A DNA stretch of 64,000 nucleotides, from assembly GCA_024703915.1 (NCBI GenBank), contig CP087969.1, forward strand, positions 1,984,001-2,048,000, read 5' to 3'. The notes under the pieces were generated by a model that had not been told where the DNA came from, made no database searches, and was given only the letters and a program-made list of their open reading frames with translations. The DNA is from Massilia sp. H-1. Its GTDB lineage: Bacteria; Pseudomonadota; Gammaproteobacteria; Burkholderiales; Burkholderiaceae_D. Positions 10,109-58,554 of the stretch are shown here, piece by piece. How positions within the stretch are numbered: the stretch's first letter is position 1; each line of letters opens with the position of its first letter. The position numbers and the translations under genes were made by a program.

Positions 10109-12315
10109 TCAGTAGCGGTAGCGCAATCCGGCGACGATGGTGCGCGGGGCGCCGGGTGCGACGAAGCGACCATCCTGCGCGTGGCCTGCGTCGGCAGGAA
10201 ACAAGTTGCGCCCGACCGCGCCGAAGCTGGCGTACCTGCGGCCGGTCACATTGTTCACCCGCGCGTACACCTCCCAGCCGGGCGCCACTTCCCAGCTCGC
10301 GCGCACGTGCAGCAGGACCCGGCCTGCCACGCGCAAGTCGGCCCGCCGCGGCGTCTCGCCATCGACCGGATCGGCCGCCAGCCCGTCCTCGTTGCCCTGG
10401 GTCGGCAAGCTGGCGCTGGCATCGAGATCGGCGCCAAAGCGCCACGCGGCATTGGCCTGCCATTCCGCGCCCAGCTTGAGCGTGTGCCGGGGCAGGCCGC
10501 AGAGCGCGGTGCCACGTCGGATCTGCACCGTGCGCAGGCCGGTGAACAGAACGCCGTCGCTGTCGTAGGCCGCGTCCAGATAGCTGTAGCTGGCGCGCAC
10601 GGACCACGCGCCGCGCACCATCCGCACGCTGGCGTCGATGCCCTGATGGCGGGTCCGGTCCACATTGGCAAAGTAACCCTGGCGCGACAGGCCCGAACTG
10701 AGAAACAGGATGTCGTCGCGGTTGACGGTACAGGTAGACCGACAGGGCCGCGTGCGTGTCCGCCTGTTCGTAGCGCAGGCCGAAGCTTCGAGCGTGCGCG
10801 ACACCACCTGGCGCAGATAAGGGTCCGACTGCAGCCCGACCGGAAGCCAAGCAAGGCTGGGCGGGATCGGCGCAGCCAAGTTCGATCACGGTCGGCACCC
10901 GGTTGCCCTGCGTCGCATTCAAGGCCGCGGTCCAGCCGCCGCCCATCTCGTGCGCCAGCCCCAGCGCGGGATTGAGCCGGGTGTAGGTGAAGCGCTCAGG
11001 CTAGGCTGCGGTCCCAGCGCGGTGGTGAGCGTATTGCCGACCCGGGCCCGGTTCAGGCGCGCGGTCGCGGTCAGGTGGGTGCCGGGCGCCAGGCTCCAGG
11101 TATCGGCCGCGTACAGACCAAACGCGTGCGCCGACCCGGTCACGGAAGAAGCCGAAGCGTGCGCTCGGCGCCCTCCAGCGCCACGATCTCGCGCGCGCCG
11201 GTGATCAGGGCGTCCTGTTCGAACTGGGCGAAACGGATGCTGCTGCGATCAAAGGTGGCAGCCGGCGTCGAGCCGGTGCCGGTCGCGCCGGGCGCTCCAC
11301 TGCAGGCTGGCGCCCTGCCCCGCGCAGGCGCGAACTGGTGGTATTGAATTCGCCTTCCGGCCCGTCGTCGCCCGGCTGAGCATCGCCATTGACGGTGTCC
11401 TTGTCGCGCTGGTGCGCGCGTACACCTGGCCCGACAAAGTGGCGTTGTTTTCCAGCCGCAGGCGGCCGCGCACGGCCAGCTGCAGCATGTTGTTGCGCGT
11501 CTCGTCAGGAAAAGTGTAGGCGGTGCGCCAGTCGCTGGCGGCCATCTCGTCGGGCAGCAAGCCGTTGCCGCGCAGGCGGCTGCGCCCCGCCGTGAGAGTG
11601 GCCTGCCAGTCGGCGCGGCCACTGTCGCGCCCTACTTTCAGGAACAGGTTGCCGAGCCTACCCTGCGAATGCGCGCGCCATCCCTGTTCGCCGAACAGCG
11701 TGGCGCCGATAAAGCTGTGCCAGCCACCCGCGTGCGCCGCGCCGCGCGCCAGGTCCAGCCGCCGCCTACCGTCCTGGCCGAGCGAGGCATCGAGTTCCAG
11801 CCCCGGATCGGTGCGGCCCGATTTGGTCTCCAGCGCCAGCGCGCCGCCCAGCGTATTGAGCCCGTACAGGGGATTCGATCCCGGCACCAGGGTCAGCTTG
11901 CTGATCGCCGCCTCGGGCAGCATGTCCCAGTTGATCACGTCGCCGAACGGCTCGTTGACGCGCACCCCGTCCAGGTAAAACCGAGATGCCCTGCGAGGTG
12001 CCGAGCACGGGCGAGGCGCGAAAGCCGCGGTAGGTCAGGTCGGTCTGGAACGGGCTGCCCGAGATGTCATTCAGGTTCACGCCATCCAGACTGCGCCCCA
12101 TGAATTCGGCCAGGGTGCCGCTGCCCGAGGCGCCGATCCGGCCGCTGTCGGCCGCCTGCACCGCATACGGCAGCAGGCGCCGTTCGATGCCCGGTCCGGC
12201 GCCCGGCGCCACGCCGACCACTTCCACCGTCGCCATCGCCTCCGGCGCTTCAGCCGACGCGGACGGCATCGGCGGCCAGCAGCGCCAGCAGCAGCGCGCT
12301 GGTGCGCCGTTTCAT
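10109..12315 (-). CDS. Second TonB-dependent receptor, last gene of the cytochrome/XoxJ-like unit
   Basis: The plug domain is recognised from 'NLNDISGSPFQTDLTYRGFR', 'VRVNEPFGDVINWDMLPE' and 'PGSNPLYGLNTLGGALAL', followed by a barrel ending GLRYRY. Length is about 730 residues. Its ATG overlaps the stop of the XoxJ-like gene (ATGA), so the two are translationally coupled. The frame is broken by slips, including one near 10990. 'PFQTDLTYRGF' is typical of receptors of unknown ligand. The gene order cytochrome-binding protein-receptor suggests the substrate is needed by the quinoprotein enzyme; that is inference. Confidence 0.8.
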
Positions 12316-18593: not shown

Positions 18594-19136
18594 ATGCGCC
18601 TGCACCTGGTGCGCCACCTGACGCCGCAAGTCGACGCCGGTGTGTGCTACGGCCGCACCGATCTTGGCGTCGATCCGGCGCTGGAGGCGCTGGCCCTGCC
18701 GGACCTGCGCCTTGCTCTCCCGCGCGGCGTGCCCCTCATTTCCAGTCCCCTGCGCCGCTGCGCCTCGCTGGCCGCCGGCCTGCACCAGCAGGTGCGCTTC
18801 GACGCCCGCCTGGCCGAACTCGATTTCGGCAGCTGGGAGATGCGGCGCTGGGAAGACATCGCCCGCGCCGAGATCGACGCCTGGGCCGCCGACGTGGTCC
18901 ACTACCGGCCGGGTGGCGGCGAAAGCGTGATCGACATGGCGCGCCGGATCGTCGATTTTTACGACAGCATGCGCAGCGCCGGACACGATGCGGCAACCGT
19001 CGTCTGCCACGCCGGGGCGATCCGTCTGCTGCTGGCGCGCCAGCGCAGCGCCGACCCGGAATGCATGGCGCGCGAGGCCGCCGAACATCCGCATCCCATC
19101 GCCTACGGCGGGGTCGTCGTCATCGACTGTGTATAA
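18594..19136 (+). CDS. cobC: Alpha-ribazole phosphatase, histidine phosphatase family
   Basis: The frame of 180 residues is intact. The N-terminal LVRH motif (residues 5-8, catalytic His) and 'LISSPLRRCA', 'ELDFGSWEMRRWEDI' and 'VVCHAGAIRLLL' place it in the phosphoglycerate-mutase-like phosphatase family. It dephosphorylates alpha-ribazole phosphate before or after joining. It is the last gene of the cobT-cobS-cobC unit; the cobalamin riboswitch begins just after its stop. Confidence 0.88.
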   Translation: MRLHLVRHLTPQVDAGVCYGRTDLGVDPALEALALPDLRLALPRGVPLISSPLRRCASLAAGLHQQVRFDARLAELDFGSWEMRRWEDIARAEIDAWAADVVHYRPGGGESVIDMARRIVDFYDSMRSAGHDAATVVCHAGAIRLLLARQRSADPECMAREAAEHPHPIAYGGVVVIDCV

Positions 19137-19142
19137 TTGGCA

Positions 19143-19410
19143 CGTTTTGGTGCCCGCACGCATGTCCATGTGTGCAGTTAAACGGGAAACACGAAGCCTT
19201 TCAAGCTAACGTGTGCTGCCCCCGCAACGGTAAGCAAGTGTCGTCCCACGGACGACGAGCCGTCTCGAACAACCACTGTGCAAACCGCATGGGAAGGTGA
19301 GACGGCCGCACTTGCCAGCCCGGATACCGGCCAGACAGGTGGAAGTGTGCGAACGGGGGATGTTCATGACGACGGCCGGAATGCGTTCCGCCCAGTCGTT
19401 GTGTCCTCAT
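19143..19410 (+). ncRNA. Cobalamin riboswitch
   Basis: The region after cobC carries the B12 aptamer hallmarks in order: the GCCCCCGCAACGGTAAGC segment at about 19216-19233, paired arms either side, and the B12 box AGCCCGGATACCGGCC at 19317-19332. An expression-platform hairpin, CGGAA-tgcg-TTCCG, follows near 19377. It sits about 70 bases upstream of btuB, so B12 binding should repress the whole uptake and synthesis operon downstream. Outer ends are approximate. Confidence 0.9.
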
Positions 19411-38117: not shown

Positions 38118-38233
38118 AGCCTGACGATAACCTACTTTCACACTGGTTGCAGCACTATCATCGGCGTAATCTCGTTTCACGGTCCTGTTCGGGATGGGAA
38201 GGGGTGGTACCGAGTTACTATGGTCATCAGGCA
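38118..38233 (-). rRNA. rrf: 5S ribosomal RNA
   Basis: The minus strand gives TGCCTGATGACCATAG at the 5' end, the conserved CCATCCCGAACAGG loop, and GTTATCGTCAGGC at the 3' end, pairing with the 5' end. Length is about 116 bases. Confidence 0.95.
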
Positions 38234-38391
38234 TAACTTGTACAGGTCCGCACAATGGCAGGGCGCAGCTTCCTTTGGAAGCTGCTACCTTGAATCTGGA
38301 AGAAGTATTGTTTTGTATTACTGGTAGCACTCGTATCAACAACAAGCACAACGCGTATTCTTATCATCTACAACTGCTAATGTTATAGGGA

Positions 38392-41268
<2,877 letters not shown>

Positions 41269-41404
41269 TTAGCTCCTGGCGACTAACCAGGAAGCGTTTA
41301 TAGAGATAAGAGTACAGCGTTGTTGCTTTGTTTGTTGATACAAGTTTTACTACCCTGCCAAACCGTTTGCACGGATTGACATAAAACTTTACTTCTTCCA
41401 GATT

Positions 41405-41414
41405 GTTAAAGAAC
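41405..41414 (-). promoter_or_regulatory. boxA antitermination site in the 16S-23S spacer
   Basis: The minus strand reads GTTCTTTAAC, the same as the copy in the leader at 43448. Confidence 0.65.
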
Positions 41415-41484
41415 GAAACAGCATTTAATCTCTAAAAGATCAAATCTAAATCCAGCAACGTCGGCCGACTTACATTTGAACTTT

Positions 41485-41561
41485 TGGTGGAGGATGACGG
41501 GATCAGAACCGACGACCCCCTGCTTGCAAAGCAGGTGCTCTCCCAGCTGAGCTAATCCCCC
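41485..41561 (-). tRNA. tRNA-Ala (TGC anticodon)
   Basis: The minus strand has GGGGGAT / ATCCTCC acceptor arms, D-arm GCTCAGCTGGGAGAGC, anticodon loop TTTGCAA with TGC, and encoded CCA. The T-loop reads GGTTCTGATCCC where GGTTCGATCCC is normal, so one extra base is present near 41505. I suspect a read error. Confidence 0.95.
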
Positions 41562-41573
41562 ATTGGGTGTTAC

Positions 41574-41650
41574 TGGTAGGGCTGGTTGGACTCGAACCAA
41601 CGACCCCCGCGTTATCAACACGGTGCTCTAACCAGCTGAGCTACAGCCCC
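41574..41650 (-). tRNA. tRNA-Ile (GAT anticodon)
   Basis: The minus strand has GGGGCTG / CAGCCCT acceptor arms, anticodon loop TTGATAA with GAT, T-arm GTTGGTTCGAGTCCAAC, and encoded CCA. It lies in the normal 16S-Ile-Ala-23S order. Confidence 0.95.
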
Positions 41651-41728
41651 AAATGCTGTTCTTTATCTTTATTAACAGTCGATAAGAGTGGACGCTTAAT
41701 GAATTGGTTCTATAACCAGGTGCAACTC

Positions 41729-43257
<1,529 letters not shown>

Positions 43258-43447
43258 CAATCTCTGTTTGTCGGACCTTTCGGCCCGAATTCGTCCCATT
43301 GGTCCGAATTCGCTCACTCAAAATACTGACAGGCCACTTCTTGCGAAGCGCCTATATTTCTTTTTGTGAACATTTGATAATTTAAGTATTCAAAGACCGA
43401 GGTCTTTGGCACCTTCATCAAACGCCCACACTTATCGACTGTTAATT

Positions 43448-51272: not shown

Positions 51273-53237
51273 TTACAGTGCTTGCAGCTCCACCATAAAT
51301 TCGCAACCGCTGGCCGCGCGCAGCTCGATCCTGAACCCCGTGCTGTACTCACCCGACAAGGCGTGCATGTCGACCACTTTCACTGCAGGCGCAGCCTAGC
51401 AGGGTCGGCTTGATGCGCAGCTTGCCCGCCAAAATGCTGCCGTCCGTTTCCAGCGTCGGCCGGACCGGCACATGCAACTGCCACACCGGCTGCACGCCTT
51501 GCGCCACGCTGCACTGGTCGCGCACCTGGAGTTTATGCAGCGCGCTGATACGTGAGGGTGCGGGTCCAGGCCGACACCTGCTGCGCGTGGCTGGAATAGG
51601 CGGAAGACAGATTCGCCGTCACCTGCAGCGTGCCCGCGCTGTCGCTGACAGTCTTGGCCAGCACCGTATTGTTTTGGCCGATCACGCTGCCGTTTGCTTC
51701 GAAGCGCACGATGTTCTGCAGGTCGACGTCCTGATTGATCCCGCTGTGCGAATAGATGTTCGACGTGACCGCCAGCCAGCCATTCTTGTAGAAGCTGAAC
51801 GAGCCCTGATCCTGGTGCGCGTGCGACTGGTCGTACACGCCTGCGACCAGCGACAGCCAGCTGGCGCCGGTGGACCAGTCGCTGCGTGCGAACAGCGCGC
51901 CAACACCGCTGGCGTCGTACATCAATGCCGTTGGCGCCAGTTCGCTTGCACTGCGGGCCAGCAAATCGTAGCGGAAGTTGAAGTTGTAGCGCATGCGTCC
52001 CACCACCGAACCGTCGCCACCGTCGGTCACCTTGATGCGGTTCAGCCACCACGTTCCGCGTTTGGCCGAATCCGAATCCGGCTTGAGCGACACCGCTTCT
52101 TCGACCAGCTTGCGCTGATAGTCGAACATCAGCGGCATGGACATGCGCGCCTGGTCGCCAATGGCCGCGTAGTAGTCGAGCGTGGGGACGGTCGCGTGGA
52201 TCCAGTAATCGATGGTGTCCCTGGCGTGGGGCGTCAGTGCCGCCAGGTCTTCGCCGGTCGAGCTTTTCCAGTAGCGGTAGTTCTCGAACAAGCTGCCCAT
52301 GGCGGTGCCATAGCCGGTTCCTTCGCGCGAACCGCCGCCTGTCAGCTGGCTGAAGAACGGCACCATCTGCGTGAATTTTTTCTGCTGCAGGAAGGTGATC
52401 CACGTAGGATTTTGCGTCGCCAGCGTCCACAGCGAGGTGGCCTTCATGAAGCTGTAGTAGTAGTTATTGCCCGGGTCGTTGATCGACCAGCCGCTCCACG
52501 GACGACTGACGCTGCCCCAGCGCGCGGAATCCGGGTTCCACACGTTGAACAGGGTCTGGTTGGCATAGGTTTCCCATTCCGTGCGTTGGGCTAGCTGTGA
52601 GCCTGGAATAGCCATAGTCGTAGCTCAGGGCGACCTGTTCGAGCAAAGGTCCCACGTCCAGGTAGGAGTCGCCTGCGATGTCCGGCTGGGTGCTTAAGCA
52701 TTGATTTTGCGGTTTTCCGAGGCGATGAACAAGCTTAGCCATGCGCAGCGCCTGATCGATGTATTTGACCTCGCCGGTCAGCCGGTACATGAGCACCGAA
52801 TCGACCGCTGAATAGCCGTAGTGGCCCGAGTTCAGTGCGGTGACCAGCTGCTCGTAGCTTGCCGTGGAAGGCAGAGCAGCGGTCACGCTGACCACGTCGT
52901 CCACCTGCGCCTTGAGCCTGGTGTAGGCGTCGGCGCTGCGGTTCGGCGAATTGAAATCGTTCAGCGAAATGAACGGACGCGTCGTTGGCAAGTTGTAGGT
53001 GTAGCCGGGGTACTGGACTTCGGGCGTTGGTGTTGGTGTCGGCGTTGGTGTCGGCGTTGGCGTTGGCGTTGGCGTCGGCGTCGGCGTTGGGGTAGGAGTC
53101 GGCGTTGGCGTGGGAGTTGGTGTCGGAGTGGGCGTTGGGGTTGGTGTCGGCGTGCCTCCGCCACCACCGCAAGCGGTCAACGTAACGATAAGCGCCAACA
53201 GCGCGGAATGAGTAAGTTGTTTGGTCGTCAGGTTCAT
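51273..53237 (-). CDS. Lipoprotein with Pro-Thr repeat linker and heparinase/alginate-lyase-like domain
   Basis: The N-terminus (HSALLALIVTLTACGGGG) has a lipobox. A linker of about 22 Pro-Thr pairs holds the domain off the membrane. An alpha-barrel part follows ('LNDFNSPNRSADAYTRLKAQ', 'ALRMAGLFIASENRKINAG', 'VALSYDYGYSRLTAGQRTEW'), then a beta-rich part with 'VYDQSHAHQDQGSFSFYKNG' and 'VTSNIYSHSGINQDVDLQNI', the heparinase II/III pattern whose His residues act in elimination. Length is about 650 residues. Scars near 52734, 52694, 52586 and 51397 and a slip near 51537 break the frame. The polysaccharide substrate is unknown. Confidence 0.78.
53025..53156. repeat. Six-base minisatellite encoding Pro-Thr repeats
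   Basis: About 22 tandem copies of a GGCGTT/GGTGTC-type hexamer (plus strand) encode Thr-Pro on the minus strand. Third-position variation between units suggests protein-level selection rather than very recent expansion. Confidence 0.9.
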
Positions 53238-53529: not shown

Positions 53530-54854
53530 ATGGGTGACGAAAGCGACGACATCAAGCCGGACCTGCAGCCATTGTTCCGACCGGAAGTATTGCAAACCCA
53601 TAGCAGGCAATACTTAGGAGCAATACGTCTGACTCAACCGATCGCCGGTTGGCTACTAACGACGGTTGCAACTGCTTTTGGGGTGGCGCTCATTCTCTAT
53701 GCAGTTCTGGGAACAATAACTAAGAAGGTGCGCGTGACAGGAATTACGGTGCCCGTCGGAGGCAGCATCAGCATCGCTACTCGGACAGGTGGTTTATTGT
53801 CGAAGATTCTTGTCGAAGATGGAGATCGGGTTAGTCAAGGGCAAGCCCTCTTTGAAATCTCCACTGCACGCCAAGGGGAACTCGGCGAACTGACTGGTTT
53901 GGTCGCAACTCAGCTAACGAACCGTAGCGAAAATCTAAGCACTGAGCGCCGCCTTCGTCAGGCGCTTGCGATCGAAAAGGGCGACGCGTTAAAGCGAAGA
54001 ATCTTCAACATCTCATCCTCGATTGCGCAACTCAATGTCGAAATAGGCCTTGTAAAGAAGCGTGAGAATTTAGCGCGGGCCAGCGTGGCACGGTTTCAGA
54101 CACTCCAACGCGATGGATTTGTTTCTGGAGCGCAGACGCAACAAAAGCAAGAGGAGTTGATCGACATTGAAGCGCGGATTTCAAACATGCGCCAAGCCAA
54201 ACTTCAATTAATGGCAGATGCAGCGAGCGCACAAAGTGATCTCTCCGCATTGAGCACTAGCCATGCTGTCGAGTTGGCGCAACTCGACAGTACAAGCGCA
54301 AGTCTGCGACAGGAAATCACAGAAAATCAAGGTCGCAAATTAAACCTGATCGTAGCGAATGAGGCAGGAATTATCACCACACTCACGACCCGTTCTGGTC
54401 AAGAGGTGAGCCCCGGGCAAACGCTCACGACACTGACACCGGTGAAGAATTTTCGAAATTTCGAAGTCCTTCTTTTGCCCCAAGCAGAACTGCAGGATTC
54501 GTCAGCATTGGCCAGCAAGTGTTGATTCGTTATGAGGCCTTCCCTTACCAAAAATACGGTTTGTATCGAGGGGAAGTTGTTGAGGTAAGCGAAACGCCGT
54601 TCGCTCCGCATGAATTGCCAGGGCAAATTGCCAGCACCATCCTCAGCAACGCAAGACAGCATGTCGCCGGGTCAGGCACAGAAGGCATGTACCGGATAAG
54701 AGTCCGCCTTGTGGACCAATCAGTATCAGCGCACGACGGCGCTCGGCAACTTAAGTCAGGCATGACCTTGGAAGCAGACGTCGTTCAGGAAGAACGAAAA
54801 ATTTGGGAATGGGTACTCCAGCCAATGCTCACGATATCGTGGAGCCATACGTGA
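53530..54854 (+). CDS. HlyD-family membrane fusion protein of the peptide exporter
   Basis: It bridges the inner-membrane ABC exporter to an outer-membrane channel. One helix ('GWLLTTVATAFGVALILYAV', about residues 37-58) is followed by a lipoyl half ('GGLLSKILVEDGDRVSQGQA'), a long alpha-helical hairpin ('LARASVARFQTLQRDGFVSG'), the second half ('LTTRSGQEVSPGQTLTTL'), and a C-terminal block ('SIGQQVLIRYEAFPYQKYG') typical of fusion proteins paired with C39 transporters. Length is about 440 residues. One C missing from a C-run near 54482 breaks the frame. Lower GC than the flanks, and no scars. Confidence 0.88.
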
Positions 54855-54993
54855 CATTCCCTTTCAAGACTTCCAGTGAAACCCGATGCAATCGCCTCGC
54901 TTGTCCCTGAAGAACTGGCGAAGACCGGAAGTGCGCCAGAAGAGGATCCCATGCGCCTGTGTGCACGGATTACCAACTTTAAAAGGAAATAGC

Positions 54994-55332
54994 ATGCGTT
55001 CAATTACTCCAGAAGAAATGCTGGCAATTGCTGGCGGTGAGGGTGAGTCGACGGCAAATGCTGGCGGCGGAACCACGACGACCACGGTCACTAACGGCAC
55101 CACCACGACAACAACATCTTATGCAAATGGTACGTCTTTGATAGTTGTAACTCGCCCCGATGGACACGGAACCGCCATCTCAACCACCACAACGATCAAT
55201 CCATCAGGAAAAGGGGCGATCGGCGGAAAAGGGGGAACTGTCGAGATCGGAGCAAGTGGCGAAGGAAGTGGCGGCACTAGCAGTACACCGAAAATTGTGC
55301 ATTTCAGCGTTTTTGAATATGACCTCGTGTAA
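54994..55332 (+). CDS. Double-glycine precursor peptide, microcin-like, Thr/Gly-rich and Cys-free
   Basis: The 112-residue peptide starts after AAAAGGAAATAGC. Residues 1-15, MRSITPEEMLAIAGG, form a standard double-glycine leader (MRxIx-xE-M-x-x-I-x-GG), to be cut by a C39 peptidase. The 97-residue core has no Cys, with Thr runs of five, six and four, many Gly and Ser, and an aromatic/acidic end (HFSVFEYDLV). No modification enzyme is seen nearby, so an unmodified class II microcin or an exported adhesive or signalling peptide are the options. It sits between the HlyD gene and the TraB/GumN gene. Confidence 0.75.
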   Translation: MRSITPEEMLAIAGGEGESTANAGGGTTTTTVTNGTTTTTTSYANGTSLIVVTRPDGHGTAISTTTTINPSGKGAIGGKGGTVEIGASGEGSGGTSSTPKIVHFSVFEYDLV

Positions 55333-55423
55333 TCAGCGCTAGAAATCTCGCTTCGTCAGGGTGAACCATTGAAGCCCGGCGAAGTCCTTCAAATTTTGAA
55401 TAGTGAGAGGATTGGCAAACCCG

Positions 55424-56455
55424 ATGAATACACTCAAAGTTGCGATCTTTGCTTTGGCATGGCTCCTCGGACCGATTCAGTGTCGGGCATCCGAAATTGC
55501 GCGCCTGTTCGTCGCGCAGAAAGATGGGCATGTCGCTTTCTTCCTTCCGGTTGTGCACACACCGACAGCAGTCGAAAAGGACGCGTACTTGCAAAAAATC
55601 ATTGAACCGGTGTTTCGTCGTTCTACCACGCTGTACGATGAATCCGTCCCGATCGCTCACCTTTACCCGACAGCGATTCACCCGTGCCGCAGGCAATTGC
55701 GCCTACCCCTTGTCTCACAACGAAAACTTGACGCAATCTCAGATCCAATTGTGCGACACGATATTTTTACGTTCCCAGTGCCATCGATTCTAAAGGAAAC
55801 TGATTTCATCAAGGTGATGCTTGTCATTTTCGGCCCGGTTGTACCGGATCTCAAAAACCTACCGCCCAGTTTCGTCGTCACCGAATCCCAAGTCGCTACA
55901 GCGCTTGCCAGGAACTACCAGATTGATCATCAAAGCATAGAGTCAATGGACGACTGGAAGAGCGTGTATTGCAGTATGAGTTTGAAGGAAAAAGAGCGGA
56001 TGGTCGATGCGATGTTTTCCGATGCAAGCACCAATTTTAATGTGAGCGAGTATCAACGTTCGCAAGCTTACGTCCGAGCAATTGCGTGCATTGATGCTGC
56101 GCTTGCCAACGCAGATGCGTGCTATGACTCCTTAACAGGTCAGACTCAATTGGGAAATCCAGCTTGGCGATCCGGGGCTGGAAAAACCAAACTGCTGCTA
56201 TCCGGCCGTAACAAGATATGGGTAGCAAAGATAAAAGCGAACAGCAAAATCAAAGGCATCCCGTTTTATGCTTTTGGTGCCGCGCATTTTCTTCACAACG
56301 CCAACGAGCCAGGCCTCTTCACCCAATTGAAACGCGCAGGCTTTCGGTTCAAAAGAATCGAAAATTTGTCCGATATCCCGGATGCAGTCATGTCCCAAGT
56401 CCCGCTTTCCAAGTCTGCACCAGAGGCGTCAGTGGACCTGAGCGAGAATCGCTGA
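55424..56455 (+). CDS. Exported TraB/GumN-family protein within the peptide export operon
   Basis: The frame of 343 residues is intact. A signal peptide (IFALAWLLGPIQCRA) precedes a TraB/GumN-like domain: 'FFLPVVHTPTAVEKDAYLQK' near residue 37, 'LARNYQIDHQSIESMDDWKS', 'AIACIDAALANADACYDSLT', and the C-terminal 'YAFGAAHFLHNANEPGLFTQ' with 'LKRAGFRFKRIENL'. The family resembles Tiki metalloproteases; the paired His of 'VVHT' and 'AAHF' are the places to look for metal ligands. It overlaps the transporter start (TGATG), so it is translationally coupled. Immunity or peptide processing are both inference. Confidence 0.75.
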   Translation: MNTLKVAIFALAWLLGPIQCRASEIARLFVAQKDGHVAFFLPVVHTPTAVEKDAYLQKIIEPVFRRSTTLYDESVPIAHLYPTAIHPCRRQLRLPLVSQRKLDAISDPIVRHDIFTFPVPSILKETDFIKVMLVIFGPVVPDLKNLPPSFVVTESQVATALARNYQIDHQSIESMDDWKSVYCSMSLKEKERMVDAMFSDASTNFNVSEYQRSQAYVRAIACIDAALANADACYDSLTGQTQLGNPAWRSGAGKTKLLLSGRNKIWVAKIKANSKIKGIPFYAFGAAHFLHNANEPGLFTQLKRAGFRFKRIENLSDIPDAVMSQVPLSKSAPEASVDLSENR

Positions 56456-58554
56456 TGCAAGTGATACTTCAATCAGAATCCTCCGAATGCGGACTTGCGT
56501 GTTTGGCGATGCTGGCGAATTACCACGGGTACCACAGCGACCTTGCCGATCTTCGCCGACGCTTCTCGATCAGCCTTAAGGGCGCCACACTGGCACAAAT
56601 CGCACGGCACGCCTCTGCCATGCAGCTTTCAACACGACCGTTGCGCTTGAATCTGGACGAACTCGCTCAGCTTAATTTGCCCTGTATTCTCCACTGGCGG
56701 CTAAATCATTTCGTGGTGCTAAAGAAAGTTCAAAGGAATCGCAGAGGGGAGATTATCTTGCAGATAATTGATCCGGCGATCGGTGAACGCAAAGTCTCGA
56801 TGGCTGAGACATCCAGCGAATTCACAGGTGTCGCACTAGAAGTCTCGCCTAGCCCTGCTTTCCGTCAGAGTGAGACGCGAGAAAGAATTTCGGTGAGGGA
56901 CCTGACCGGAAAAGTAGCAGGACTGCGTCCCGCACTGACGCAGGTGTTGCTTCTCGCCGCCGCATTGGAGATTTTCGCCGTTGCGTCTCCCCTTTTGGTC
57001 AATTTATCATCGATGAAGTAGTTGTAAGTGGCGACCGAGCCTTGCTCGTCGTGTTGGTGATAGGCTTTGGGCTTCTGATTGCGATCCAAACTGCGGTCGG
57101 ACTTGCACGCAGTTGGTTTCTGATGCGATGGAGTATGGATATTTCATTCCAATGGAGTGGTCGCGTATTCGGACATCTGATTAGACTGCCAGTTTCATTC
57201 TTCGAAAAGCGCCATCTGGCAGATGTCGTTTCACGGTTTGGAAGTATTGGCGTCATCCAAAATACGCTAACCAGTCTGTTTGTAGAAAGCCTGCTCGACG
57301 GGTTGATGGCGATGGTGGCGCTCATGATGATGCTCATGTATAGCGCAAGATTGACAGTCATCGTGCTGGCTGGCGTCGCGCTTTACGCTCTCTTGCGTTG
57401 GGTGTTCTATCAGCCCTTCCGTGAGGCAGCGCAGGCAAGGATAGTCCTGGCGGCCAGAGAAGGAAGCCACTTTCTCGAAACACTGCGATCCATTACCGCA
57501 ATCAAACTGTTCGGGCGCGAAGATGAGCGTCGGGTTCGCTGGCAGAATCTGGTCGCCGAACTTCAAAATCGCGACATCAGGACACAAAAACTGTCAGTCG
57601 TGTTCAAGGCCGCACACACGACCATGTTCGCCATCCAGGGTTTGGCAATTTTCTATATCGGCGCTGGACTGGTGATGGACAACGCCTTGTCGGTCGGCAT
57701 GCTCATGGCCTTTATTAGCTACTCAGGAAATTTCATGGCACGAATCTTCAGCTTGATCGACCTGTTCATTAACGTAAAAATGCTGGACTTGCATTGCAGA
57801 ACGGCTTGCGGACATCGTACTTGAGGAGACTGAGCAAGATCATCCCGTGCAAGCCGACGTCTCTCGACTCCGCCCACAGATAGAAGTTAGAAATCTCAAA
57901 TTTCGATACGCTGAGGGAGAACCATGGGTAATAAATGGCATTGATTTAACCATCCCAGCTGGGCAAAACATTGCATTGATCGGCGCTAGCGGCTGCGGCA
58001 AGACCACCCTCTGTAAGATTATTCTGGGCTTACTTCGGCCGACTGAGGGCGAGGTATTACTCGACAATGTTCCGATTGACCAGATCGGCTTGAGTACTTA
58101 CCGGCAATTGGTTGGCGCGGCAATGCAGGACGATGTACTCATGACCGGCTCGATTGTAGACAACATCGGCTTTTTCGACACGGGAGCAGATGTGAAACTT
58201 GTACAAAAATGTGCAATGCAGGCTGCAATTCACGAGGAAATTGTCAGGATGCCGATGGGATATCAGTCTTTGGTTGGGGACATGGGAAGCAGCCTTTCTG
58301 GCGGACAGAAGCAGCGGGTATTACTTGCCAGATCACTCTATAAAAATCCCAAAATATTGGTTCTGGACGAGGCAACCAGTCATCTTGACGTGGAGAATGA
58401 GAGACGGGTAAATCTCGCCCTGAAAGGCCTTTCACTCACACGCATAGTTATTGCGCATCGGCCAGAAACGATCTCTGTCGTGGATCGGGTGGTTGAACTC
58501 CACGACGGCCGCGCCATTGAGGTGAGGCGTCCGCGGGAGGTGCTGTCTGTTTGA
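56455..58554 (+). CDS. C39-peptidase ABC exporter
   Basis: It cuts double-glycine leaders and exports the core peptide. The peptidase domain (residues 1-130) has Cys12 in 'SESSECGLACLAMLANYHG', His85 in 'RLNHFVVL', and Asp106 in 'IIDPAIGE', a complete catalytic triad. A six-helix membrane domain follows ('GQFIIDEVVVSGDRALL', 'RLPVSFFEKRHLADVVSRFG'). The ATPase domain has Walker A 'GASGCGKTTLCK', signature 'SLSGGQKQRVLLAR', and Walker B 'ILVLDEATSHLD'. Length is about 700 residues. A T-run slip near 56995 and an extra T near 57796 break the frame; no scars occur. Confidence 0.92.

Follow-up and report, generated by a model that had tools for sequence, protein, structure and literature searches.

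We analysed a stretch of 64,000 nucleotides from the genome of Massilia sp. H-1 (contig CP087969.1, positions 1,984,001 to 2,048,000; hereafter the window) and concentrated on a plus-strand operon in which the gene of a TraB/PrgY/GumN-like protein lies among genes for peptide export. The order is HlyD, double-glycine (GG) leader peptide, TraB/GumN-like protein and C39 exporter, and all four genes of the compact arrangement described in an earlier note, made from the sequence alone, were found in that order and on that strand. The HlyD-type membrane fusion protein is encoded at 53530..54854 in two frames and has Pfam lipoyl/HlyD domains; both pieces match NCBIfam type_I_hlyD below its cut-off. 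The peptide gene (54994..55332) encodes 112 amino acids, with the leader MRSITPEEMLAIAGG at 54994-55038 and a Thr/Gly-rich mature part of 97 residues; AAAAGGAAATAGC lies immediately 5' of its ATG, and comparison of the window proteins with Pfam gave no match for the peptide. The TraB/GumN-like gene (55424..56455) encodes 343 residues from its ATG, or 350 from an alternative GTG at 55403. It is followed by the C39 peptidase-containing ATP-binding cassette (ABC) exporter, which lies at 56455..58554 in three frames. At the junction, TGATG (56453..56457, plus strand), the last base of the TraB stop codon TGA is also the first base of the exporter ATG, just as the earlier note had read it.

The exporter comprises a peptidase domain (56455 to about 57000), a membrane domain (to about 57794) and a nucleotide-binding domain (to 58554), with Pfam E values of 3e-35 for Peptidase_C39, 6e-35 for ABC_membrane and 1e-32 for ABC_tran. 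The NHLP bacteriocin export families TIGR03796/TIGR03797 were considered for it; the best NCBIfam family, TIGR03796, scored 122, 113 and 215 bits on the three gene pieces against a cut-off of 853. The residues Q6, C12, H85 and D106, which we take to be the catalytic residues of the C39 domain, were unchanged across an alignment of five sequences. Promoter and terminator scans gave no signal better than that of shuffled sequence.

As sequenced, neither HlyD nor the exporter is a single open reading frame (ORF), a feature that the earlier note had missed while giving the genes and their order correctly. The HlyD frame changes once, between about 54444 and 54525, and the exporter frame twice, near 56985-57000 and 57785-57800. 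Intact relatives in Undibacterium umbellatum (L042) and in genome G543 (L031) are colinear with HlyD and the exporter across these breaks. All three exporter clusters found in the source genome, colinear though they are with intact relatives, are frame-broken, each at different sites, a canonical TraB gene (G000:C1:2717842-2718643) is likewise split, and the estimated completeness of the genome, a single contig of 5,836,689 bases, is 48.22%; for these reasons indel errors of sequencing or assembly are the likely cause of the breaks, and a decayed operon is less likely.

The TraB/GumN-like protein was compared with Pfam TraB_PrgY_gumN (PF01963). In hmmscan the match had an E value of 1.7e-5 and 25.3 bits, the cut-off being 26.8, and in a whole-genome search the same gene reached 26.9 bits, just above the cut-off. 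A paralogue in the source genome (locus L009, described below) scored 25.8 bits. The cut-off was exceeded by 11 of 12 further partner TraBs scanned (L031:11581 was below it with 19.5 bits) and also by a piece of the broken TraB gene of L063. When 15 partner TraBs were aligned, the only residues invariant in all of them were H45, E73, R262, G285 and H288; the plus-strand codons of H45 (motif VVHT), E73 (YDES) and H288 (AAHF) are at 55556..55558, 55640..55642 and 56285..56287. The His, Glu, Arg and His positions presumably represent the active-site region of the PF01963 family; since most of these proteins share only 15-33% identity with that of the window, such invariance points to an active site in use. 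The histidines of VVHT and AAHF, which the earlier note had singled out for structure prediction, are therefore conserved, but the predicted structure was too poor to place them. A TIKI-superfamily enzyme has a His-Glu pair inside a 2His/2Glu site, according to the accessible part of PMC6254334. A profile of the TraBs compared by sequence with solved structures retrieved no relatives up to E 1. The N-terminus of the window protein resembles a signal peptide when judged by eye; of 14 TraBs listed in a hydropathy scan, six had a flagged segment, among them the paralogue and not the window protein. From N-termini judged in this way we infer that the TraB/GumN-like partner may be secreted.

Two further exporter clusters are present in the source genome. 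The first (L009, C1:560000-578000) is a paralogous operon with the identical order of HlyD, GG peptide (MRTITTEELSIISGG...), TraB/GumN and C39 exporter, and, as in the window, its TraB gene ends on the A of the C39 ATG (L009:11072). Both operons thus have a small peptide with a GG-type sequence (MRSITPEEMLAIAGG kept), whose function as a leader is predicted. Between the two operons the TraB proteins are 34% identical, the C39 domains 65% over 144 residues and the GG peptides 45% over 100 amino acids (100 columns). Because the four genes and the TGATG junction occur again in a second operon, we rejected a chance insertion of the TraB gene. In the other cluster (L155, C1:3966000-3984000; genes at L155:6761-11604), exporter and HlyD share a strand, and a GG peptide followed by a CPBP protease (Rce1-like, E 4e-18) is oriented divergently. 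The G+C content of this peptide and CPBP cassette is low (0.512) beside a host-like value for the exporter (0.632), and by its composition the cassette looks as though it had been swapped in. The window operon has a G+C content of 0.514 versus 0.627 for the remaining window; outside the operon, overlapping 5-kb segments of the window (196 in all) had a mean of 0.632 and a minimum of 0.50. An origin of the operon from a plasmid was rejected, as no match was found in a plasmid collection at E <= 1e-5.

To describe what stands beside the peptide in related loci, we used 30 named loci, picked by eye, in which a GG peptide neighbours a partner of at least 150 residues. They were curated from an automatic list of 134 candidate peptides, many of them spurious, and from a listing of the slot in L041-L070. 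Left out were L115 (the partner frame resembles a non-gene), L103 and L105 (unconvincing leaders), L043 (S33-like with a weak Pfam E of 0.0019, at a contig start where no peptide could be seen), L060 (the cluster has ClpP-like genes, but away from the peptide) and L107 (on account of its partner), whereas L063 was counted despite an uncertain peptide start and a broken TraB. The partner was peptidase-like in 22 of the 30 loci, 17 of them by Pfam (16 at E <= 1e-5) and five by our own ClpP-like profile, which retrieves solved ClpP chains with a best E of 1.9e-4. Seven partners are TraB proteins (L042, L045, L046, L050, L052, L063, L069), four CPBP proteins (L058, L061, L067, L081), three retropepsin-like aspartyl proteases (L047, L048, L054), one an M16 peptidase (L044), one a rhomboid (L057) and six ClpP-like (L074 by Pfam; L041, L059, L064, L096 and L109 by our profile).

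As controls we took 20 genes downstream of exporters, of which two or more may not be real genes. Sixteen matched Pfam at 1e-5 and four had no match; a single one bore a peptidase name (an M78/helix-turn-helix regulator, L074). At E <= 1e-5 in Pfam, peptidases thus occupied 16/30 slots versus 1/20 controls, the controls having been scanned at E <= 1e-5 and the slot proteins up to 0.05. In loci with a short slot, a hydrophobic segment was seen in all 18 small slot proteins that we had picked, and several GG-peptide loci run straight into the exporter with no partner (e.g. L073, L075, L077, L090). Judged by these sequence comparisons, the position can be taken by TraB/GumN or by several other kinds of protein and is a slot for many hydrolases; to call the gene 'embedded' in the export operon, as had been done, is too narrow.

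Some loci near this sample are worth recording. A weak peptidase-MA match below the cut-off (L026:18048) stands outside the 22. In a genome of the same genus (L162, G001:C20), a GG peptide, a 420-residue alpha/beta-hydrolase-like protein and a C39 exporter occur together; the protein matches Pfam S33/S9 weakly (E 0.02, below the cut-off) and, while not among the 22, is possibly another hydrolase in the slot. JmjC-type hydroxylase, glycosyltransferase-like and LanC-like genes lie near GG peptides or exporters (L082:8680-9996, L160:4304-5119, L063:6568-7791 and L055:16631-17833), and a role of such genes in peptide modification is possible. In a metagenome-assembled genome (MAG) of Acidobacteriaceae (L070:3530-5945), at least seven short GG peptides, all from a single family, stand in a row ahead of a weak ATP-grasp-like gene.

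The recurrence of the association was examined from both of its ends. Searches for TraB used the window protein as query and, for the order and class draws, an alignment of both copies; the draws partly overlap. Weak matches were obtained in 4 of 244 other genomes in the family draw, 5 of 398 in the order draw and 5 of 368 in the class draw. In the stretches around these matches (14 genomes), HlyD and a C39 exporter were near TraB in three, G173, G543 and G311. The order in G173 is HlyD, TraB, GG peptide, C39, and in G543 two pairs of GG-type peptide and TraB are followed by HlyD and C39. Small LuxR-type genes stand ahead of each of the two pairs in G543 (L031:8202-8453 and 10550-10879; the first is GerE-like with an E of 0.0017, below the cut-off). 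TraB-like genes of the same type were also seen at L029:9596-10804 (G055) and L030:8982-10307 (G131), where no HlyD/C39 exporter was found in about 20 kb.

From the exporter side, the C39 domain was compared with 84,980 species genomes, and the best 80 of at least 572 loci were taken by exporter similarity alone. With a profile made from the first eight TraB sequences, a TraB was detected near the exporter in 7 of these 80 named loci, and Pfam agreed in all seven. TraB is directly upstream of C39 in Undibacterium umbellatum (L042), a Burkholderiales MAG (L045), Sapientia aquatica (L046), a Rhodoferax MAG (L063, broken) and Paucibacter sp. KBW04 (L069); in Massilia sp. Root335 (L050) and a Massilia MAG (L052) it lies downstream of the exporter, behind a GG peptide of its own. 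In 79 family genomes, 65 TraB places and 50 C39 places gave 52 same-genome pairs. Six of these were within 5 kb, with 0.10 expected, and four within 300 bases; two of the six come from the source genome itself, two from G083 and one each from G024 and G065. We took G083 to be Sapientia aquatica, since its genes are the same as those of L046, so it overlaps the named set; a second copy of TraB, GG peptide and C39 is present in it. The earlier note had made its proposal depend on co-occurrence being conserved in other genomes, and the association recurs in several genera; a lack of co-occurrence was not what was found.

The partner in the slot follows the peptide, not the exporter. One such arrangement is an array in G311 (L026 and L027, G311:C1:856000-890000), in which nine GG peptides and eight partners extend over about 23 kb, some peptides lying more than 10 kb from the exporter. 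Its partners include three TraB and three CPBP proteins, one ClpP-like protein (by our own profile) and one weak peptidase-MA match. Ahead of most cassettes stands a shortened, divergent copy of the hlyD start, and the cassettes look as if they had been duplicated together with the promoter region. The array is interrupted by two near-identical transposase-like ORFs (L026:10247-11641, L027:1317-2711). The placement of the partner also varies, as peptide and TraB together are downstream of the exporter in L050 and L052 and TraB is ahead of the peptide in G173. Among 36 cassettes, peptide pairs with z > 5 were found in 6 of 143 same-class comparisons versus 3 of 487 between different classes (shuffle p 0.003).

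The computations established which genes make up the set and that it recurs, that partner classes are swapped, that a partner is linked to its peptide, and that candidate catalytic residues are conserved. On this basis we propose to read the operon as an export cassette of microcin type. The C39 ABC exporter and HlyD would cut and export the GG peptide, and peptide that leaks into the producer's periplasm, or re-enters it from outside, would expose the cell to a toxic product. The TraB/GumN-like protein, secreted to the periplasm, would act there as the cognate immunity protein and neutralise the mature peptide, most likely by cleavage; it would fill an immunity slot for which related cassettes use CPBP, retropepsin-like, ClpP-like, M16, rhomboid or small membrane proteins. 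Immunity agrees best with a partner that tracks the peptide and with a position held by CPBP proteins (a family already linked to bacteriocin immunity), other proteases or small hydrophobic proteins. A periplasmic protease, moreover, fits the swapping of folds, since any cutting enzyme would suffice, as well as the linkage to the peptide and the small membrane proteins in the same position. We hold it to be somewhat probable that the TraB/GumN protease is a cognate immunity protein that cleaves the peptide in the periplasm. A broader idea is more tentative and in our judgement falls a little short of an even chance, namely that, as a general rule, 'any protease will do' for the immunity slot in GG-peptide cassettes of Burkholderiales and relatives. 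Folds unrelated to one another (TraB/GumN, CPBP, retropepsin-like, ClpP-like, M16, rhomboid and perhaps alpha/beta hydrolases) would have been recruited to it repeatedly as peptide-specific antidotes and exchanged between toxin cassettes that share exporters.

The main rival is maturation, in which TraB would make a second, activating cut after the C39 peptidase has removed the leader. The hydrolase-like partners of the 22 curated loci and their linkage to the peptide would agree with such a role, and SilX, a CAAX protease beside a bacteriocin locus, is described in the accessible part of PMC9298176 as giving no immunity and as acting perhaps in the processing of a signal peptide. On the other hand, the many unrelated protease folds and small hydrophobic non-protease proteins at the same position speak against a maturation enzyme, as do the exporter loci mentioned above that have a GG peptide and no partner at all, and we consider maturation unlikely. 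The earlier note had offered immunity, signal turnover and maturation side by side; immunity is the one that fits best, and it is not decisively separated from maturation. If the peptide were a signal, TraB could degrade the producer's own signal in the way of PrgY/TraB on enterococcal pheromone plasmids, a member of the same family thought, in the available text of PMC7117660, to degrade the endogenous pheromone outside the cell. The LuxR-type (GerE-like) genes of cluster L031 would agree with this. However, at about 35-200 residues the mature parts would be long pheromones, no receptor or regulator was recognised in the window operon, and a single genome holds arrays in which numerous distinct peptides have partners of differing kinds; we regard signal turnover as quite improbable.

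Immunity might also work without cleavage, the TraB fold binding and sequestering the peptide. The CPBP-family protein LsrS functions in bacteriocin biology without a catalytic site, as far as the accessible part of PMC9298176 goes, and small non-protease proteins fill the slot elsewhere, but the invariance of H45, E73, R262 and H288 in all 15 partner TraBs argues for a catalytic role, and we give sequestration a low probability. A surface or matrix product such as an adhesin or amyloid, with TraB as a processing or quality-control protease, would agree with the repetitive, Thr/Gly-rich mature parts and with the weak resemblance of the C39 domain to FapD, which belongs to the Fap amyloid system (E 8e-5, well short of the cut-off). 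It is very improbable in view of the microcin-like sizes and leaders and of the polymorphic cassettes with exchanged partners, and no partners of an amyloid operon were recognised in the operon.

Several observations weigh against cleavage-based immunity as we propose it. Eight of the 30 slot partners, all 30 chosen by eye, are not recognised peptidases: L051, L053, L055 (LanC-like), L070 (weak ATP-grasp), L076, L079, L082 (JmjC) and L085 (adhesin-like). TraB-type matches that lack an exporter are common. None of 16 other genomes of the genus matched the window TraB, an exporter was absent from the stretch in 11 of the 14 genomes examined around weak TraB matches, and in the pairs of G024 and G065 TraB and C39 are separated by 3.1 kb and a further gene, a GG peptide not being seen there. 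The peptide-similarity test gives modest support, because three of the six similar same-class pairs are within-genome paralogues; L041 and L045, moreover, have strongly similar peptides with different partners, ClpP-like and TraB, respectively. The structure model of the window TraB was of low confidence (predicted local distance difference test, pLDDT, 51.8; predicted template modelling score, pTM, 0.56) and had no Foldseek match at E <= 0.001. In the fold search, chains of RRSP, BcR135 and EreC had Z values of 3.1-4.2, not above unrelated rows, and the top row (Z 4.7) was an unrelated phosphatase. The broken frames of HlyD and the exporter count here as well, and SilX is a caution against taking every protease so placed for an immunity protein.

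Elsewhere in the window, a GGCGTT tandem repeat of about 22 copies with 76% match (53023-53153) lies within a minus-strand ORF just upstream of the operon. A minus-strand rRNA operon with tRNA-Ile and tRNA-Ala was found at 38119-43258 and a cobalamin riboswitch at 19132-19349. The window's 16S gene reached at most 91.8% identity with sequences in the plasmid collection, Cupriavidus being the best match, which pointed to Burkholderiales.

If our proposal is true, proteolytic immunity would be a common, fold-independent route by which bacteria survive their own exported peptides, and every cassette would combine a peptide with an enzyme that has evolved to cleave it. Looking for secreted proteases next to GG leaders would become a rule for finding unannotated microcins, and TraB/GumN proteins would gain a defined, testable role in Gram-negative bacteria. 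In the literature searched, TraB, GumN, bacteriocin and immunity nowhere occurred together and this gene set was not described, although an earlier description in Kim et al. 2024 or Parker et al. 2025 is possible.

Among known systems, class II microcins resemble the window operon in gene set (GG peptide, C39 exporter or peptidase-containing ABC transporter, HlyD-type membrane fusion protein), in leader type and in having an adjacent partner gene, as far as described in the available parts of PMC13174018 and PMC13101503. Their canonical immunity protein is an inner-membrane protein (PMC13101503, in the same part), whereas the window has a putative secreted TraB/GumN protease. The C39 exporter and its HlyD-type partner are present in the window, both frame-broken as sequenced, and TraB occupies the position of the adjacent immunity gene, for which an immunity role is predicted. 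PrgY/TraB of enterococcal plasmids belongs to the same Pfam family and presumably breaks down an endogenous peptide extracellularly (PMC7117660, in part); it differs in being membrane-localised and in having a conjugation pheromone as target, the window partner being a GG peptide with its own exporter. The CAAX/CPBP (Abi) proteases of bacteriocin loci also stand beside a bacteriocin gene and are often implicated in immunity (PMC9298176, in the accessible part). The slot is held by CPBP proteins in related loci, as it is in the source genome's third cluster, but these are integral membrane proteins whose fold differs from that of TraB. The Cdz system of contact-dependent killing in Caulobacter shares type I secretion, glycine-rich exports and an adjacent immunity gene; CdzI is a small protein with three transmembrane segments, whose gene reportedly could not be deleted by itself, and the N-terminal regions of CdzC/D are likened to RTX signals (PMC5380434, in the text available). 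Unlike Cdz, the window operon has a GG leader and an exporter with a C39 domain. In place of a small membrane immunity protein beside two glycine-zipper exports, we found one exported peptide and a TraB-like partner of 343 residues.

The closest parallel in principle is a Vibrio cholerae microcin for which Kim et al. 2024, by title, report 'proteolytic immunity'; its cognate immunity protein is said to be a protease that cuts the microcin. That system belongs to another order of bacteria. The opinion that no system with this exact set had been described agrees with the literature searched. With protease-type microcin immunity already in print, again by title, the TraB/GumN case would represent a variant of an existing principle.

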